Shown here: positions 35,165-44,856 of the stretch, in pieces | Position numbering within the stretch: position 1 is the first letter of the stretch | How the letters are laid out: every line of letters starts with the position of its first letter | NCBI RefSeq assembly: GCF_033473495.1 | Contig: NC_088939.1 | Location: 806,001 to 870,000 of the forward strand | DNA length: 64,000 bases | Source: Cercospora beticola | Taxonomy: Eukaryota; Ascomycota; Dothideomycetes; Mycosphaerellales; Mycosphaerellaceae | Direction of reading: 5' to 3' | Notes under the pieces: generated by a model | Told to the model about the DNA's origin: nothing | The model's database searches: none | Seen by the model: the letters and a program-made list of their open reading frames with translations, nothing else | Program-made: the position numbers and the translations under genes

Positions 35165-37990
35165 ATGATTTTGCATCACTTCATATCTGCCCTGGCGGCC
35201 GTCTTTATTTCATTCGCCAAGACTGCCACTTGTCTACGCCTGATTGTGGAAGCATCCCGGTCGGCAGGAGATGTAAGGCAAGACGTGCGGTATGGCGACT
35301 ATTCTGACGCCAAGTAGGACCTGAGCTCATTGCAAGTCGCATTGCAGAATGCATTCTCTGAAGACAACGTTTCCTGCTCCGTCCGGCGCCAATTCATCAG
35401 CACTGTTTTCTCAGGCTTCTCATTGGAGATTGACAATCCACCGCAGGATCTGCAAACTGTGAAAGAGCGCATTGAGTCCGTTCCCGGCGTAATTGCTGTA
35501 TGGTCGGCACCTACTTATCGCCTGTCTTCCATTTCTTCATCACCTGCTGCTGCCGGCCGTGAGTCGGAGGGGCATGCGGTCCCAGACCACAATGAGACTA
35601 GCAGTCATTCTAGCATTCCCATCCCAATCGAGACTCTGCCACACAGCTTCACGGGTGTGCAGCAGCTTCACGATGCTGGCATCAATGGCCAAGAAGTGCG
35701 AATCGCCATGATTGACAGCGGCGTCGACTATCTACATCCGGCTTTTGGTGCTGGTCTTGGTCCCAACTACACTGTGACCTACGGTGTCAACCTCGCGAAT
35801 GTCACGGAAGAAGCGACTGCGGCGGCGAACATGACCGGCGATCCATTTTCAGAGTGCACGTTTCACGGCACTCACACTACTGGCATCGTTGCTGGGAAAC
35901 ATCCCGCACTTGGCTTCGTTGGGGTGGCCCCCGGAGCACACATTGAACATTATCGCATCTCAGGATGCGATAAGAACATGCACGTTGATATCGACGCTGT
36001 GATCCAGGCCATTCTCGCTGCTCATGAACGGAACGTCGACGTTATATCCCTCTCTCTGGAGACTAATGGCGGCCCTTATCCGGACGAAGCGGTTTCGACT
36101 ATTCTCACTCGCATCGCAGCCGAGGACAACATTGTCATCGTGGTCGCCATGGGTAATAATGGCCGTCAAGGGCCATTCTCCTCCGACTCTCCCGGTTCTG
36201 CGACTGGTGTGCTCGCCGTCGGTTCTGTCAACAATCATATGGTGCTGCAATCTCAACCTCGTGCCCAGTTCTCCACCTCCGGAGAGTCTCTCCCGCATGA
36301 CATACCCTGGTCGCCAGGGACTCCATCGCGATTTCCAGAATCTCTTGAGCTCGCTGCACTCTCGTCGAATGATTCCATTGACGGGGAGGCATGCCACAAT
36401 ATCTCGCAACATGGCGCTTCTCTGCGGACCTCTGCCCTGCTCGTACGTCGCGGGGGATGCACTTTCGATCAAAAAATGTCGCACGTGGTCGCAGCAACGC
36501 AGGTGCAGTATGCGCTCATCTATGACAATGAGCCAACAAGCGCCGAGAAGCCAATCTTCGAATTCGACAACGAGTTCCCGGGCATTCGCGGTATCGGCGG
36601 TGTCTCGGCAGACACTGGCAAAGAGCTTGTGGATGCTTTGAGATCTGGTCATGAGGTCAGCATCTCCATGGATTCCAACTTCACTTTGATGCCGTACATC
36701 GCAGCGCAGAACAACGATCGTCCCAGAGGGGCCGTGTCTCCTGGTAGCTCTTGGGGACCCACAGGGCTGCTCGACATCGCGCCGCACATCATGGCACCTG
36801 GGAATGGAATCTGGTCAACAGTTCCTCGAAGCTGGGGTGGTTATTCAACCAAAAGCGGCACTTCTCAAGCGTGCCCTTACGTTTCAGGCTCAGTCGCTCT
36901 TCTGAAGCAAGCCCATCCCGAACTCCGTGCTTCAGAGATCCTGCGCCGTTTGAAACTTTCTGCAACACCAATTAGGTTCAATGACGGCACTGAAAAGGCA
37001 TACAATGTCCTTGCTCCGGTATGGCAACAAGGTCATGGTCTGTTGAATGTGTCTGCTGCAGCCGCTCTACAGACAGACGCTTTCCCGGTGTCTTTGCCTC
37101 TCAACGATACCGAGCACTTTCGCAAGACATCACATATCACGATTCGAAATAGCGGGGACTTCACGGCTAAGTACAACATCACATCAATCTCTGCAGCCAC
37201 TCTCGCCATATATGGAAGAGGCAATAGAAGCTCTATCATCCCTTGGCATGTCGCCAATGACACTGAGGGCCCGCGCACTTCCACCTTCGCGTCTCGTGGA
37301 TTCTTGGACAACATTCTTCCGATGCACGCTGCCATCACCTTGCAACCTGAAACCATTGAGATCCCCCCGCACGAGTCTAGGAACATAAGCGTCGTTGCAG
37401 ACATTACGGAATTCCGGAGTTCACGTGATCGTTGCCCGCTTTACAGTGGCTTCATCAACATCACAAGCTCTCGCGACGAATCACTTATTGTTTCGTATGG
37501 CGGCCTTGCCTGCAATCTCGAAGACGTTGCCCCTCTCCCTGATCCCGGCACCTACTTGACCGCAGGGAACTACTCCACTATTGAAGTCATTGGCAACAAC
37601 TTCAAGCCCGTTCACGCCGACACACTATTCAAGCTGCCTACTGCCAATACTTCGGTTCCAACACTAGCGTCGAAGACCATCTATCCTATTCTCAACGTAG
37701 AGTTGGCCATGTACAGCCCACGGATCAAAGTCTACGTACTTCGTGAGGACGATGCAACAGGATCCATGGAAAACACCGAGATACAAGCTTATCCAGCAGA
37801 CGAAAGCACGTCACAGCCTGGTGGTATGAGTCGAGCGGACTCGAAGCATTATCTTTGGCGCGGTCAGCTAGCAGATGGATCCTGGGCCGAACCCGGAAAA
37901 TACACCTTTGAAGTTTGCGCTGCTAGGGCGTGGATGGCCAAGATGGACTGCCAGAGAACACTGAGATTCGAACTGCAATATCAGGATTGA
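35165..37990 (+). CDS. secreted subtilisin-like serine protease with PA insert (Vpr-like)
   Basis: Two exons: 35165-35272 and 35318-37990; 926 aa. The 45-nt intron (GTAAGG, CTGAC branch, AAGTAG) contains an in-frame TAG, so the gene is intact when spliced. Order: signal peptide MILHHFISALAAVFISFAKT; I9-like propeptide (residues ~37-105, VFSGFSLEID...VPGVIAVWS); S8 domain with Asp169 (IAMIDSGVDY), His222 (FHGTHTTGIVAG) and Ser552 in GTSQACPYVSG; a protease-associated insert at about 380-490 (LLVRRGGCTFDQK); then a C-terminal beta-rich Fn3-like region. GTSQACPY differs from the usual GTSMACPH but keeps the serine. It is secreted and probably vacuolar or extracellular. It lies 122 bp tail-to-tail from the UstYa-like gene. 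Confidence 0.93.
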
Positions 37991-38112: not shown

Positions 38113-39311
38113 CTAAAATATCCCATTGTATTTACGCTTCTGGACTGCTTCGCTCCCATTGAACCTCGAAGTCGACCATTCTCGGATCATCTCAAAATTT
38201 CTGCACTCGTGGTATTGATCGGAATCTGTGAAGGTTCGATTCGCGGATTCGAACCATTTCCATGGTATTGGAGTCAGTGAACCATGGCACATGACGGTTT
38301 GTCTGATCATATCGATGCAGTGATCTACAGGCGTGGTCGTTAGTTCGGCAAAACGGCAATTTCACTTAGGTCTGACGAATGCAATGGGTCTGATTTTGAA
38401 GACGCTGCGGTTCGTACACGACATACCGACGTGATATCTTTCCCATTCGCGATTCGTGCCCTGGGGAAAATAGTATTCGGGATCCAGGAGCTTTCGGAGC
38501 ATGTTCTGGGGCATAAGTGGTCAGTCGGAATTGACATCGAGTGCAGCACAGGCAAGTTTGGAAGTGCTTTTGCTTACCGTGCAATGCAAAACATGGAACA
38601 AATCTAAGCTATTGACGAATTCAAAAGTAAGCAAACGAACGAACCTTTAACTTCTATTGTTGTGATCAACCTGAATACTGTACTCACCCTACCATATACC
38701 CAGTATAGAAGTCTTTCTCGACATAATAGTCTTTGTAGCGGGACCCAAAGGCCTCTTTTGCTTCCTGCTCCGTTATGATGAAATACCGTCCTGAATACCG
38801 AGGAAAGGAAACCAAAAGTCAGCCAAATAAATCAAATCTCTCCAACGCGCAGCCTTACCTGAAAGCAAGTATTCCCACGCAGAATCAATCTCTGCGGTCG
38901 GAGGTCCGACGTACTGCACAGAGCCTTCGGGAAATGTACGATAGGGCACACCATCCTCATCGAAAGCAGCTCCTCCAGTGAAAAGTACCGTCTCTGTTGC
39001 AAGAGCTTTACGTGCCGGGGCTATCGGCAAAAATCTTGAAATTAGATAGTTGGACTTTGTCATTAGATCTTTCTGTCTCTCTTACCGAAGTCTGTTGATC
39101 TGTAGAGAGTCTTGTCGGAAGTGATGTCGAGTTTTGTGGTTTTACGCCTCATTGATGCTCGCTCGTGTCTCAGGGACCAGAGCGATAGTGCGAAAATTGC
39201 AACTACGAGGAAGTAACTAAACGCGATCGAAAAATGTCCTCGATTATTGCTATTCCGGCGTTCATAGCTGGAACTGGGCGTGGTCCCTTTGGTTTTCGAT
39301 GAGAAATACAT
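38113..39311 (-). CDS. UstYa/DUF3328-type oxidase-like membrane protein
   Basis: Six exons: 39086-39311, 38859-39020, 38688-38790, 38578-38608, 38427-38505 and 38113-38324, with all junction phases matching; 270 aa. A single N-terminal membrane span lies at residues 27-46 (HFSIAFSYFLVVAIFALSLW). The lumenal part has the DUF3328 pattern PPTAEIDSAWEYLL, then two HxxHC motifs: HVLHC at 169-173 (followed by NMLRKLL) and HVDHC at 199-203 (followed by IDMIRQTVMCHGSLTP). In ustiloxin, asperipin, phomopsin and related dikaritin clusters, UstYa-type proteins oxidise and cyclise Kex2-released peptides. The repeat precursor at 43.0 kb is 3.7 kb away, which supports that role here by inference. One exon codes for only 31 nt. 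Confidence 0.88.
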
Positions 39312-40420
39312 TGTTTGCGTATCGAAAACGATCAGTGCTTGCGATGTGATGTGTTGGAGTGCCTAGTAAACAACGCGCTTTGACGGGGTGTAACGGGGGC
39401 ATTCTACCTCACACTCTACAATCGCATATGTCGCCCGCGGACTACACGACCGCAAATGAGGGCAAGATCCTTGGGATCAGGCTACTCAATTCGAACGCAA
39501 TGAGTAATATCAGCATGGTCTGTAGAAAAGTATATGTATATCACGTCAGAGTGACAGAGGACCAGGCTCGGGATACCGGGCGCTTCAAATTCTCCGGTCA
39601 GTTCTGAAGTTGCACGGTAGGTTTCGATGAACAAGGTTGCTTAGCTGTGGCTAGGATCTAAAGACCTACTTCTCTCACCGACCAGGATAAGCGCCTGTCT
39701 GACTCAGGAGGCATGGTCACGAAACGTTTCTCGCAAGAACTTCGGCCGCAAAGGCTTAATGCAACTTCGATGTATAAAGTCGTTGATGGAAACAGTGGCT
39801 ATACGATCTATGCGGGTCAAAGGTGTGTGCATTCACCTTTATACGAATTTCATTGAGAGACACGGGGCTGTTCTGTGTGAGAGGAACCAAGGAGAAAATC
39901 GGAATATTTTGACTTGGTTATTTCGTGATCCTGCGAACGCGTGATGATTGATACGACAGAACGTTCAGACCACCTCTGAAGGTCTACTCGATACTTGTCA
40001 TCATACAGCCGATCTAGGGTCACCATCTAATCGTCAATCCAGCATCCATTTTACAGAAGACTCTTAGCAACTAGCGTTAGCGGACAATGGTTGCGAAGGA
40101 GGTGAAAAGGCGATGAACACTTCGTGATCACCGCGGCGAACCCACGGCAAGGATGTTTACAGTACTGTATTACAGTGTGTCACCTGCATACGGGAAACGG
40201 CTCGCAGGGTACCTCTCGATTTTGAGGCATTTGCAACCTTTTTGGCAGTCGATTCGAGGCAGCTTATTGGCAGGAGAGCCTCGAGAGGACCTTGACCTTA
40301 TATTCCTTGAATCCGCGTATGCTAACCCACGCGCCGGCTTCATTGTGCGTGGGTTCACCCACGTCTTTGGTAGATGTCCGTAAGGGGTAGATGGACAAAA
40401 TTCTCCCCAGTCTCTCCATC
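39312..40420. other. intergenic region within the candidate peptide cluster
   Basis: About 1.1 kb between the UstYa-like start and the stop of the next gene, both on the - strand. No gene is recognised. A perfect 9-bp stem (40324-40332 with 40347-40355, 14-nt loop) lies about 70 bp downstream of the following gene's stop and could be part of its 3' end. Confidence 0.4.
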
Positions 40421-41077
40421 CTAACACGCAGGGAAAATCACCAGCGCCCTGGTCTTGATCTCATCAGGGTCAAGATATGAACTCTCCGTCAAGACTTTGG
40501 AGCAGTGCATGGTATGCTGATAGCTCAACCCCGAATGATAAGGTTTTCCAGCAAGAAGCGATCGATGCATTCTTTTCCAGGAGTAAATACAATGAAGCGC
40601 ATGGTTGGCATTTGTCAAGTATGTTTTGCTCTCGTCTTGTGAGAAGTCATGGTCTGATTTCGTGATGGTGCCTTGAAGGTTTGCATGTAGTGTCCAATTT
40701 GTTTTGGTGAGCAGATCGTGCGCAAGGTCCTTGTCCAGGCATCGTTCGGGAAGCCATGCAAAGCTCACGGGATCCCAGTGGCAGCCTTTGAGTCTGGCCT
40801 CAGATACCGAGGACCCGCATTCATGCTTGCGGAGGTCGATCTCGTCGTAGGTATATTGCGGTCCTGCAGAGAAGGTGGATTGTCGCCAGGCGAGAAAAGC
40901 CGTGGTCCAGGGAAGAACCATTAATATTAGCACCACAATGGCGTTCCTCCAATTAGTTAGTGGAAGTGGTGCGGTGTTTTGGTCATGCTTAAGAGTATCC
41001 TTGAAAAGCAGTGGCTTCTGATGCTCCAGATCATGACTGTTCGCATTCCCCTCCATGTGCGTCACTTCTTTATCCAT
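40421..41077 (-). CDS. single-pass membrane protein with two HxxHC motifs (distant UstYa-like)
   Basis: A single exon of 218 aa. It has a membrane span at about 46-64 (AIVVLILMVLPWTTAFLAW). The lumenal part begins with HECGSSVSEARLKGCHWDP (CGxS-SEAR-GC block, 85-103). Two HxxHC motifs follow: HALHC at 159-163 (then IYSWKRMHRSL) and HTMHC at 188-192. The topology and the motif pair are those of UstYa proteins, yet the surrounding sequence is not DUF3328-like. The gene is divergent from a homologue at 41.6 kb that shares the SEAR-GC block and both motifs. It is probably a metal-binding or oxidase-like protein acting in the secretory pathway; this is inference. An ATG at 41056 is an alternative start. 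Confidence 0.8.
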   Translation of the reverse strand: MDKEVTHMEGNANSHDLEHQKPLLFKDTLKHDQNTAPLPLTNWRNAIVVLILMVLPWTTAFLAWRQSTFSAGPQYTYDEIDLRKHECGSSVSEARLKGCHWDPVSFAWLPERCLDKDLAHDLLTKTNWTLHANLQGTITKSDHDFSQDESKTYLTNANHALHCIYSWKRMHRSLLAGKPYHSGLSYQHTMHCSKVLTESSYLDPDEIKTRALVIFPAC

Positions 41078-41573
41078 CTTTCGTCTCCGTTGGATCTGTG
41101 TCTATGATAATGAGAATGCAGTACCAGCTATCTAGCTGATACATGCCTGGTTGTCGACGAACCTTCTCTTGATAGCTTTTTATTAGCGAGGGGCCGTGAG
41201 AAGTGGAACGGAGTACACGTTTCGGTCCTCCTTGTTGTCAACAGTCCCCGGTTGAGGTGTTCCAACTCACGTAATTGAACCCAGGACTTGCCCGCGCGAG
41301 CTTGTCGGATAGCGACTTGTCGGAGTTCACCAGTCAAGATTACTTCGGTCCTATAGATCAACTTCGGAAATGAGTCTTCGAGTAAGTGGCTTGATGCAAG
41401 TGGAAGTCGGACAGTTGATGATGATGGACTCGTCGCGGCTTTGTGAAATTATACTTTTCCGCAGAGATCTCGTATGGGGAAAAAGTCACCAGCTTGCATG
41501 CAGATCAAACCATCATCAACTTACGACATCTCATCCGCGAAGGCCGTATTACAACTTGGCACAGAGGACGAAT
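41078..41573. promoter_or_regulatory. divergent promoter region of the paired HxxHC genes
   Basis: About 500 bp shared between the two homologous, outward-facing genes. The 41574 gene's frame is open back to 41370 with an ATG, but that stretch looks like leader. A shared promoter would allow co-expression. Confidence 0.45.
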
Positions 41574-42359
41574 ATGGGGGACCAAAAAGCAAATTACTCT
41601 AGACTGTCGATGGCAGAGCCCTCTCCAGAAGAAGAGCTGGGAGGAAGTGGAATGTCTAGCTCTGACGAGCCCTGCACCGCAAGCTCTGGACGATATCGAT
41701 CGATCACGCAGCGAGCGACAACGGTCTTTGCGGGAGGCCTGATTGCAGGATGCCTGCTTCTACTTTTCCTGCACTGGATTACAGCCAGCATCGATGATCG
41801 ATTGCTCGCAACGTCTATCGCTTCTGAAGCTTCATACAGTCCTCAAGCAACCATTCTTAGTTGTGGAAGGACAGCATCAGAAGCCCGCTCTCTAGGCTGC
41901 CGATTTCAACTATGGTCGTATTCCTGGACGCCATTACCCTGTTACGACGCCGACCTGGATCAAGATTTCCTCGAGATGTACTCCCGCGAGCATGAACGGC
42001 AAGGCTGGGGCTACTTTACGAAGCGAATTGCGCCAACCTGGGACGACGCTGTGCCCCTAGATATTCTGCTGAAAGGGGAAGGAAATGGTTTGTGGAGCAC
42101 GCATGGGCAGCACTGGTGGCATTGTGCGTATTACCAAAAAAAATTCTTCCGTACTCTGGGAGGGGCAGCCTACACTGGCAGCTCCAGCGGCGTCGGGTTA
42201 CTGGCTGATAGAGATCTGAATTTTACTCATGCGAACCATTGCCAACAAGTGGTAGCAAATGGCTATACGGATCTGAAGAAATGGGACGAGCTGGACTTTC
42301 ATTTGACCGTTGGGTTTCAGTCTTGTAGCATTCCTTTGCAAGCAAGGAGAATGCAGTAG
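41574..42359 (+). CDS. single-pass membrane protein with two HxxHC motifs (paralogue of the 40.4 kb gene)
   Basis: A single exon of 261 aa from the ATG at 41574 (MGDQKANYSRLSMAEP). The membrane span is at 51-71 (VFAGGLIAGCLLLLFLHWIT). Shared with its neighbour: LSCGRTASEARSLGCRF (96-111), the CYDADL block (123-128), and two HxxHC motifs, HWWHC at 180-184 and HANHC at 219-223. Spacing between the two motifs (about 35 residues) is close to the 25 in the neighbour and in the UstYa-like protein at 38.1 kb. The protein would lie in the secretory pathway with the motifs lumenal. A role in modifying the repeat precursor encoded 660 bp downstream is proposed, not shown. Confidence 0.8.
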   Translation: MGDQKANYSRLSMAEPSPEEELGGSGMSSSDEPCTASSGRYRSITQRATTVFAGGLIAGCLLLLFLHWITASIDDRLLATSIASEASYSPQATILSCGRTASEARSLGCRFQLWSYSWTPLPCYDADLDQDFLEMYSREHERQGWGYFTKRIAPTWDDAVPLDILLKGEGNGLWSTHGQHWWHCAYYQKKFFRTLGGAAYTGSSSGVGLLADRDLNFTHANHCQQVVANGYTDLKKWDELDFHLTVGFQSCSIPLQARRMQ

Positions 42360-43021
42360 CTAGGTTGTGTGATCACCGATTTCGGCAGCTGAAGCAAATG
42401 ATTCGTACAATCTAGAAGACTAGGATCGTAGTCGTGACCCCCATTACTCGGAAGCGTTGTTGCCCATTGAGAGCTCTGTGCTTGGACGTGATGTCAGTTG
42501 GTTTGGCTTCGGAGACAGATGTCGTGATGGTCGGTCTCCGTTGGCGTGTGTCTTGTGTCGGAATCAAGCACATACGGATCTGAACCACTAGTACGTCAGC
42601 ACCAACGGAAATGGTAGCCTCTGCTTCCACTATACCAAGTCGGCCGCGCTCGCGCCCCGATGTCTTCGCTCTCCCGCAGCGACCGGGCTCCGTTCGTACG
42701 CTGCCGTAAGAGTGCATAGCGATAGGTTCACATGCTTGCCAAATCTGGGTTGTCTGGGTATCCCAATCGAGTTCAAGTGCCTGAAGGAGCGTGCGGACTC
42801 CGGGTTGTACTTGGTCTGCTCTAGCACCGGCTCAGTGTCTCGTCTTGCACAGAGGATCGCACAAGTTGAAACGTGCGATGTACAATATATAAGAGCAGAA
42901 GTGAACCACATTGGTCTCCTCCATCTACAGCATCCAAGCAAACACAACAAAGCTCGATCTCACTTCTGCACCATTTTCCACAAACAACATCATAATTTTT
43001 CCGCTAGGTCAAGCTGCTACC
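42360..43021. promoter_or_regulatory. upstream region of the repeat precursor gene
   Basis: About 660 bp. It ends in a classic core promoter and a C/A-rich 5' leader (ccatctacagcatccaagca). No gene is recognised in it. Confidence 0.5.
42885..42893 (+). promoter_or_regulatory. TATA box of the repeat precursor gene
   Basis: atatataag lies about 130 bp upstream of the ATG at 43022, with a CA-rich leader between. The clear TATA suggests strong or inducible expression. Confidence 0.6.
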
Positions 43022-43972
43022 ATGAAGACTTCTACTTTCAGCATCTTCACACTCCTCGCCGCTAGCGCTCTGGCAGCGCCCGTCCAGGAGGTAAGTCTGT
43101 CGCTACTAAGTTGCGGATGTCCACTGATAAACGATTCATAGAGAGCCAACGGAGGAGCGATCGCCCTTCGCTCTAACATGGTGCCTTATGAGCGTCGGGA
43201 TGGAGGCGAATTGTCCACTGCTGACCCTGAGGGTGATCAAAGTGCCGACGCGGTTGAGAACAACAAAGTCCATTACCGTGTTCGCCGCATTCGTCGTGAT
43301 GGAGGAGAGCTGTCGACTGCGGACCCAGAGGGCGATCAAAGCGCCGATGCGGTTGAGAACAACAAGGTGAACTACCGCCGCGACGGTGGCGAGCTGTCGA
43401 CTGCGGACCCAGAGGGCGATCAGAGCGCTGATGCGGTTGAGAACAACAAAGTGAACCACCGCCGCGATGGAGGAGAGCTGTCTACTGCGGACCCTGAGGG
43501 AGACCAGAGTGCCGATGCTGTCGAGAACAACAAAGTGAACCACCGCCGCGATGGAGGAGAGCTGTCTACTGCGGACCCTGAGGGAGACCAGAGTGCCGAT
43601 GCTGTCGAGAACAACAAGGTGAACCACCGCCGCGACGGTGGCGAGCTGTCGACTGCGGACCCAGAGGGCGATCAGAGCGCCGATGCGGTTGAGAACAACA
43701 AAGTGAACCACCGCCGCGATGGAGGAGAGCTGTCCACTGCGGACCCAGAGGGCGACCAGAGTGCCGATGCGGTTGAGAACAACAAAGTGAACCACCGCCG
43801 CGATGGAGGAGAGCTGTCCACTGCGGACCCAGAGGGCGACCAGAGTGCCGATGCCGTGGAGAACAACAAGGTGCACTTCCGTGTGCGCCGTGACGGTGGC
43901 GAGCTGTCCACTGCGGACCCAGAGGGCGATCAGAGTGCTGATGCGGTCGAGAACAACAAGGTGCACTACTAG
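43022..43972 (+). CDS. secreted nine-repeat precursor with Arg-Arg (Kex2/KexB) sites; candidate RiPP/KEP precursor
   Basis: Two exons: 43022-43090 and 43142-43972 (intron GTAAGT...CATAG, phase 0); 299 aa. Signal peptide MKTSTFSIFTLLAASALA is followed by a short leader (APVQERANGGAIALRSN, then MVPYERR). Nine units follow. Each starts DGGELSTADPEGDQ and ends VENNKV plus two variable residues, and is bounded by RR. Units 2-7 are 28 aa (84 bp). The terminal dipeptides are HY, NY, NH (five times), HF and HY. Units 1 and 8 have expanded basic linkers (RVRRIRR, RVRR). Kex2-type cleavage would free 26-residue acidic peptides. This is the architecture of Kex2-processed repeat proteins, including UstA and GigA dikaritin precursors. 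Nearby UstYa-like genes support a RiPP role. A signalling or wall peptide is the alternative. Confidence 0.9.
43199..43969 (+). repeat. nine tandem 84-bp class coding repeats
   Basis: Units start at 43199, 43298, 43382, 43466, 43550, 43634, 43718, 43802 and 43892. At DNA level they fall into pairs: units 3/6 and 4/5 differ by one base in 84, and 7/8 share the same codon set until their ends. All DNA differences in the first 25 codons of every unit are synonymous. Confidence 0.95.
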
Positions 43973-44856
43973 ATGTACCACGCCTGGTAAATGCCTCTCG
44001 GCATACGGACCAGGTGACCAGGTAGCCAGAATATTCTTCAGGGACTTCGTGGATAACATGCTGGATAGGAATATCGGACACCAATAGAAGTGCGAAATGA
44101 GGGCCTCACACCTCGAACTGTTTGTGTAGAGATAAATTTCCTTTGTCAGGATAGATGGACTAAGATTGTTGCGCTGTTGACTTTTTTCACCTCCCTTCCG
44201 AACACGCTATCTTCTCAGTTTGCTCGCGCGCCAGAACTTCCTGTGACGAGGTAAGTGGAGCGCAGGTAATGCCGCGGCTTTGCCAAAGTACTCCTGCCTA
44301 CCCAAAACTGTGACGCGGCTCAAGTCATTTGCGGGGCCCTGCTTTGGCAATTCCAGTTCGCAGGCATGGAGACCGTTCCATACACATATTATGATATATC
44401 TGCCATCCGGGCCCGCCTCGAATTGCGGGCGATTGCTAACACTTTCTTTATGTTCGAAACGTGCTCATCGTTCGAGCGTGTCGGGTACGTACAGTTCCCT
44501 GTATGCCAGTCAACAGCTTCCGAAGTGTGACCATCGCGGATTGGATCACCTTGAAAGTCCTTGCTCTCAGGAGGCGTCGCCGCTTCACAGGCACAGATGA
44601 AAGGTGGACATACGATGAGTTGATGGGATCAGATCAGTGATTCGGTGTGATATTGCCCACGTTTCGTGACAACACATACGTACATACAAAGCCTACCTGT
44701 GGCTCTCAGTCCAGTCCCGCTAATTGCATGTGTATCCTTGATGCGCCTGCGAATGCATATCTCCCTGTTGGCGGCCCTGGGTTCAGTGCGATTGCTTTGT
44801 CGAAGGCACTGCGACAGCGAAAGACGCCGCAACATCTTCCTTTCCTATACGGACAT
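43973..44856. other. convergent 3' intergenic region
   Basis: About 880 bp between the repeat precursor and the V-ATPase gene. Only short overlapping ORFs are present; no further cluster gene is seen. This is the apparent right edge of the candidate cluster. Confidence 0.4.

Follow-up and report, generated by a model that had tools for sequence, protein, structure and literature searches.

Do a repeat precursor gene and the membrane protein genes beside it on contig C5 of Cercospora beticola (genome of 36 Mb in ten contigs) form a single pathway for a modified peptide, and if so, of what kind? We analysed bases 806001-870000 of that contig, a stretch of 64,000 nucleotides referred to below as the window. 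An earlier note on this DNA had pointed to the precursor, P, and to three membrane proteins, A, B and C, which it took for UstYa/DUF3328 proteins acting on the peptides released from P. Our analysis suggests that these genes are likely to be a UstYa-type (dikaritin-like) cluster for a ribosomally synthesised and post-translationally modified peptide (RiPP), in a variant form that also includes a subtilase and a pair of proteins, B and C, of what we term the CGxS-HxxHC family. The features concerned, with their positions in the window, are:

43022..43972, plus strand: precursor P, exons 43022-43090 and 43142-43972; 299 amino acids, with nine 26-residue units separated by RR
38113..39311, minus strand: gene A, UstYa protein (PF11807) of 270 amino acids, with motifs HVLHC and HVDHC; six exons by our splice reading (39311-39086, 39020-38859, 38790-38688, 38608-38578, 38505-38427, 38324-38113)
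40421..41077, minus strand: gene B, single exon, single-pass membrane protein of 218 amino acids, with CGSSVSEARLKGC, HALHC and HTMHC
41574..42359, plus strand: gene C, single exon, single-pass membrane protein of 261 amino acids, with CGRTASEARSLGC, HWWHC and HANHC
41078..41573, no strand: intergenic stretch of 496 bp between the divergent genes B and C, taken from the gene positions
35318..37990, plus strand: S8 subtilase frame of 890 codons, with Peptidase_S8 and fn3_5 domains (Pfam)

The precursor and the genes beside it

P begins at ATG 43022, has a single intron (43091-43141) and ends with a stop codon at 43970-43972. Its N-terminus (MKTSTFSIFTLLAASALAA), judged by eye, is signal-like, and is followed by about 23 residues ending in ERR and then by the nine units, so that the secreted-looking precursor with nine near-identical, Arg-Arg-bounded units described earlier is borne out in the spliced product. 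Each unit consists of DGGELSTADPEGDQSADAVENNKV and two variable residues, which are in order HY, NY, NH (five times), HF and HY. The sequence after unit 1 is RVRR-IRR, that after each of units 2-7 is RR and that after unit 8 is RVRR; directly after unit 9 comes the stop codon.

The units differ from one another by at most 16 of 78 bases. Within the 24 constant codons we find 18 variable nucleotide sites, and 22 of the 22 inferred changes are silent, an outcome with a probability of 7e-15 to 1e-12 under random changes (23-29% expected silent); replacement changes are confined to codons 25-26. The silence of all 22 changes argues that the constant part is held by selection at the protein level. 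We infer that the variable tail of the unit is the core.

A matches PF11807 far above the cut-off (E 1.2e-43; 150 bits against 25), and by its sequence is a true UstYa protein. The gene has five introns, and its second HxxHC motif spans an exon junction, being present only after splicing. The public model CB0940_07019 (P0022, 168 amino acids) matches exons 2-5 of A, starting within exon 1 and lacking the last exon and with it the second HxxHC. A, B and C contain one hydrophobic stretch each (residues 24-48, 44-65 and 47-74, respectively) and exactly two HxxHC motifs each; in 100,000 composition shuffles, two such motifs arose 0, 19 and 0 times, and among the 548 window frames of at least 60 amino acids only those of B and C contain two. 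Hydropathy, motif counts and shuffles thus confirm the earlier description of three single-pass membrane proteins.

The start of P lies 3.7 kb from that of A, with two genes between, and all three membrane proteins are less than 5 kb from the precursor. The subtilase, which the earlier note had omitted, ends 123 bases from gene A; it is known as an open frame whose exact start and possible 5' exon are not fixed, and is a probable member of the cluster. The stretch between B and C may well be a shared promoter region.

In published work, a signal-led, dibasic repeat precursor near a UstYa gene is a hallmark of dikaritin-type clusters (PMC9632046, PMC7329392). Of the 7878 Kex2-processed repeat proteins (KEPs) surveyed in PMC7329392, 1758 have a DUF3328 neighbour, at a mean distance of 3.09 genes. 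The dikaritins, or ust-RiPS (ustiloxin, phomopsin, asperipin-2a), resemble the window cluster in their signal peptide, dibasic repeat units and nearby UstYa gene, whereas the window cluster adds two HxxHC proteins outside PF11807 and a subtilase, and P differs in having RR rather than KR sites and long acidic units, the main form of which is free of Tyr.

Two minor observations concern P. Opposite its repeat array, a minus-strand frame (43136-44206) is open for 356 codons, and is probably a by-product of the repeat rather than a gene. A match of P to DUF4222 (E 0.011) falls below the curated cut-off, and we took it as chance.

Recurrence of the gene set on contig C9

The strongest evidence that the window genes are one unit is that the same five gene kinds are found again at 78-92 kb of contig C9, giving two loci in one genome:

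C9:78402-80627: subtilase, 33% identical to that of the window
C9, 85.5 kb, minus strand, and 86.6-87.1 kb, plus strand: divergent CGxS pair
C9:90326-90631 (L005:333-638), minus strand: signal-led precursor of 101 amino acids with five DVAKPDYQYLV units
C9:91494-92045: UstYa gene (PF11807 match)

Such a recurrence makes a chance neighbourhood of the window genes unlikely. The CGxS pair is divergent at both loci; the members of the C9 pair are 45% identical to each other and 25-32% identical to B and C. In the C9 precursor the units are parted by KK or RK, and changes within the unit are again all silent. We considered whether the C9 cluster is a recent duplicate of the window cluster and rejected this: the nearest paralogs of A are on C1 and C3, the CGxS genes and subtilases have diverged to the identities given above, and the precursors are unrelated. 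By sequence, the two loci have a gene set in common that is not the product of recent duplication. A genome search with the window subtilase returned, besides itself, two matches, the C9 gene and one on C2. The latter (C2:709656-711944, minus strand) is a degenerate copy interrupted by 35 stops; a UstYa match lies 18 kb away from it.

Two further precursors lie beside UstYa genes elsewhere in the genome:

C9, ~620.9-621.5 kb, plus strand: intron-split precursor with EVPYEVGLTYADYGREGAAKAEKR units (~621.1-621.4 kb; L003 ~400-975), beside UstYa matches
C2, ~4615.1-4615.5 kb, plus strand: candidate precursor with two ESYQWASDGGYVSFY units (~4615.3-4615.5 kb; L047:640-987) and KR sites; a UstYa match lies 2 kb away; start codon not fixed

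Both are Tyr-rich, and a CGxS gene was not found near either, which indicates that the CGxS pair is not required in every UstYa cluster. The other UstYa regions scanned (L030-L049, ten match groups of about 20 kb in all, and short pieces) gave no further precursor. These scans were centred on UstYa genes, and are a sample rather than a genome-wide survey; a scan for KR or RR sites with at least three units missed three real precursors, which wider scans recovered.

The CGxS-HxxHC family and its relation to UstYa

B and C have a common, UstYa-like layout, CGxSxxEAxxxGC...W...CxD followed by the two HxxHC motifs. Further full-length, single-frame members are present in the genome (L010, L016 and L021), and intron-split or partial ones lie at C9:85-87, C5:293, C8:305 and C3:3708 kb. 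The five full-length members have in common CGxSxxEAxxxGC (loosely), the Trp, Cys-x-Asp and two HxxHC. Our alignment of the family takes in B and C, two more members from this genome and 20 of the 21 public matches, 24 rows in total, and excludes P0005 (RHO25_012421, a truncated model) and L021, which is near-identical to P0001; it shows ten invariant positions, and two HxxHC motifs in every row except P0020, which has none.

Public relatives span Cercospora, Septoria, Fulvia, Colletotrichum and Macrophomina. Those of B (P0007 and P0010-P0019, including sequences from Colletotrichum somersetense, Macrophomina phaseolina and Fulvia fulva) are 48-69% identical locally, and a 16-row tree groups B with six of them (support 100/98); for C the tree is poorly resolved, with a long branch and weak forks. 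B, C and P are themselves absent among the public matches, suggesting that public annotation may lack them, and for that reason it is weak evidence that the matches in C. kikuchii and C. berteroae include none of A, B, C and P. A literature search turned up neither an account of a CGxS-HxxHC family outside PF11807, a weak negative given that most full texts and subscription journals were not covered, nor a paper for the locus tags.

Genome searches, five in number and with the best candidates scored, gave at least eight family loci. The nearest PF11807 match lies 1.8 kb away in the window, 0.4 kb at C9:449 kb, 1.2 kb at C4:739 kb, 3.5 kb at C5:293 kb, 4.4 kb at C9:85-87 kb, 8.7 kb at C4:722 kb, 42 kb at C8:305 kb and more than 3 Mb at C3:3708 kb. 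Six of the eight are therefore within 10 kb of such a match, as is 2.0% of the genome (binomial 1.8e-9), or five of seven when the window is excluded (6.7e-8), although a distance of 17 kb separates the two C4 places, which might be regarded as a single locus. The remote C3 locus is a fragment (3707.6-3707.8 kb) with two HxxHC motifs, and 8.6 kb from it is the best of the genome's tyrosinase matches (C3:3716347-3717021); the C8 locus has no tyrosinase match of that kind nearby.

Are B and C UstYa proteins? Against PF11807, four of the 24 alignment rows match at E<=1 (best 2e-5), and one of the 21 public matches carries the PF11807 label. A profile comparison built on five sequences did not align motifs to motifs (probability 1%); with 24 sequences both HxxHC motifs were aligned, with E values of 8e-4 and 2.4e-4 and probabilities of 25 and 43%. 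By sequence, B and C would thus be a family separate from PF11807, with a similarity to UstYa that is remote at most.

In the structure predicted for B by AlphaFold2, with a mean pLDDT of 82 and block means of 86-98 from residue 91 onward, the two HxxHC motifs lie on neighbouring helices, in the order membrane helix 40-70, helix 116-125, short helix 142-146, strand 152-155, HxxHC helix 156-176, HxxHC helix 186-199 and strand 207-211; C was judged by hydropathy and motifs only. A poor model (pLDDT 60) of the UstYa homolog P0023 has a similar order of elements: helix 126-136, short helix 145-151, strand 162-167, HxxHC helix 168-183, an extra short helix, HxxHC helix 195-214, strand 220-226 and a C-terminal extension. 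These models suggest that B and C are probably distant UstYa relatives by form. No close solved structure was found for B (best Foldseek E 3.2). Its sequence matches to the chain sc-CC-6-95 (E 0.009, no passing stretch) and to a herpesvirus family and a release-factor family (E 0.09 and 0.13, below the curated cut-offs) were set aside, the latter two as chance.

The UstYa/DUF3328 label given to all three proteins by the earlier note is therefore correct for A and, by Pfam, not for B and C. Its proposal that the four genes make up one modified-peptide pathway stands in part: the gene set and its recurrence on C9 speak for it, and the assignment of B and C to UstYa is not supported as it was put.

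A useful comparison is CctR, a copper-dependent DUF3328 enzyme that carries two copper ions per monomer on its HxxHC motifs, both essential to it (PMC12435403). CctR and its kind have one membrane helix and a lumenal HxxHC(x)nHxxHC, a layout predicted for B and C too, and the neighbouring HxxHC helices in the model of B correspond to those described for CctR. Unlike CctR, B and C do not show the signature of PF11807 and have a CGxS...GC...C block at the N-terminal end, and the substrate of CctR is a non-ribosomal peptide where here we read it as ribosomal. By analogy, B and C may bind copper and depend on both motifs.

Probable cluster extent, proposed product and alternatives

To the left of the subtilase a Pfam scan found an epimerase-type frame and DcpS (32-33 kb), and to the right of P a V-ATPase proteolipid gene (45 kb); with these flanks the unit spans approximately 35-44 kb. 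The earlier statement that no tyrosinase, methyltransferase or transporter is nearby held up, with no PF00264 match in the window (25 genome-wide), and neither a methyltransferase nor a transporter among the 20 other window frames scanned, a subset of the window's genes. Tyrosinase is found in the ustiloxin and phomopsin clusters and is not required in all; for asperipin-2a, which has one UstY only, the passages of PMC12048977 and PMC7329392 consulted name no tyrosinase, so the lack of one here is not disqualifying. At the window edge, a minus-strand frame (3-1220), open for about 406 codons and containing repeats rich in Ser, Val and Pro (GVPVITIGGVPSV...), is possibly a repeat protein extending past that edge.

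If the genes act together, P would enter the secretory route by its predicted signal peptide, and Kex2, the neighbouring subtilase or both would cut it at Arg-Arg, releasing an acidic peptide of 26 residues in about nine copies. The calculated monoisotopic masses of the units without modification are 2668.148 (NH), 2694.153 (NY), 2717.169 (HY) and 2701.174 Da (HF). A, B and C would sit in the same membranes, their HxxHC domains facing the lumen, as their sequences and the published case of CctR suggest, and might serve as copper-dependent oxidases or oxidase partners that hydroxylate or cross-link the peptide. The likeliest site of modification would be the tail K-V-(N/H)-(H/Y/F), the sole part that varies between units, and the acidic constant part may be a recognition segment.

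A PF11807 gene close to a dibasic repeat precursor, with the recurrence on C9, supports this reading as a RiPP cluster, as do the silent changes in the constant part of the units, the closeness of most CGxS loci to PF11807 matches, the helix arrangement in the model of B and the DUF3328 neighbours recorded in the KEP survey. Several results weigh against it. Of the 7994 protein-collection candidates that were scored against P, none is a homolog at E<=0.01, and a genome search with P returned P alone. Scans of about 20 kb around each of A's two closest paralogs, C1:580 kb (44% identity) and C3:161 kb (42%), both found with the partial model P0022 as query, gave no repeat precursor, nor was one present within the 3-5 kb scanned around each of the other CGxS loci. 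B and C have no Pfam family and do not match PF11807 at E<=1, and the better of the two hhalign probabilities linking their family to UstYa is 43%. UstYa proteins also act in non-RiPP pathways (PMC12048977). Finally, Tyr or Phe is present in four of the nine P units, with His at the same place in the five that have neither, a feature passed over by the earlier note; in the DUF3328-neighboured set of PMC7329392, 65.6% of repeats contain Tyr. A tyrosine ether is therefore not to be assumed for the main peptide.

Of the alternatives, the one that survives best, though we think it unlikely, is that P is released as unmodified linear peptides (a signal, a pheromone-like peptide or an effector), with the HxxHC genes acting elsewhere. 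The five units without Tyr and Phe would fit this, as would the promoters of A, B/C and P, which have no motif in common above chance (one common 8-mer against 0.36 expected and no 9-mers, by simple base shuffles), and most published KEPs (6120 of 7878) are without a DUF3328 neighbour (PMC7329392). However, P adjoins a PF11807 gene, and a second precursor occurs in the same setting at C9:78-92 kb; KEPs such as pheromones and alpha factors have a precursor layout like that of P, but in the same survey the pheromone type almost never adjoins DUF3328 genes.

A poorer candidate is that the HxxHC genes serve a non-peptide or non-ribosomal pathway to which P is an accidental neighbour, which we regard as improbable. 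DUF3328 proteins do act in non-ribosomal peptide synthetase (NRPS) and other pathways (PMC12435403; PMC12048977), but among the 20 other frames scanned there is no polyketide synthase or NRPS domain, the single AMP-binding frame (54-56 kb) lies past the V-ATPase gene, and the gene set that recurs on C9 includes a precursor. Least credible of all is that P remains uncut and acts as an intact repeat protein (a surface protein or effector), since although its eight inter-unit sites are all RR and Kex2 is generally held to favour KR, a dibasic site is kept at every unit border, and the three other UstYa-side precursors of the genome also have dibasic borders, KR or KK/RK.

We therefore retain the dikaritin-like cluster as our reading. 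In Venturia nine dikaritin clusters have been called, and one of their precursors had earlier been listed as a repeat effector candidate (PMC9632046). In Mycosphaerella fijiensis 11 DUF3328 genes are up in infected leaf, against none in culture, and four clusters hold nine of the 11 (PMC5006380). Venturia inaequalis, like C. beticola a leaf pathogen, offers a close parallel in its re-read effector candidates beside DUF3328 genes, but the passages of PMC9632046 consulted mention neither CGxS-HxxHC proteins nor a subtilase, and the window cluster has both. A dikaritin-like cluster as such is a known kind; the variant with CGxS pair and subtilase, recurring at a second locus, looks new.

More tentatively, and with rather less confidence than in the cluster itself, we suggest that the CGxS-HxxHC proteins may be a second family of copper oxidases in fungi, so far without a name, or else obligate partners of UstYa, able to work as a divergent pair, and that they may mark a RiPP subclass (UstYa, CGxS pair, dedicated subtilase and repeat precursor). 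In the window cluster the peptide would then carry its modification on a short variable tail that in most units has no tyrosine. Were this so, surveys based on PF11807 would undercount the modifying enzymes of fungal repeat peptides, and an HxxHC family without a Pfam entry of its own would become a marker by which to find peptide-modifying clusters overlooked by present mining rules. The main peptide of the window, having neither Tyr nor Phe, would be a test of whether enzymes of this kind form links different from the tyrosine ethers found in ustiloxin, for which the C9 cluster, with its Tyr-containing units, would be an internal comparison within the same genome.

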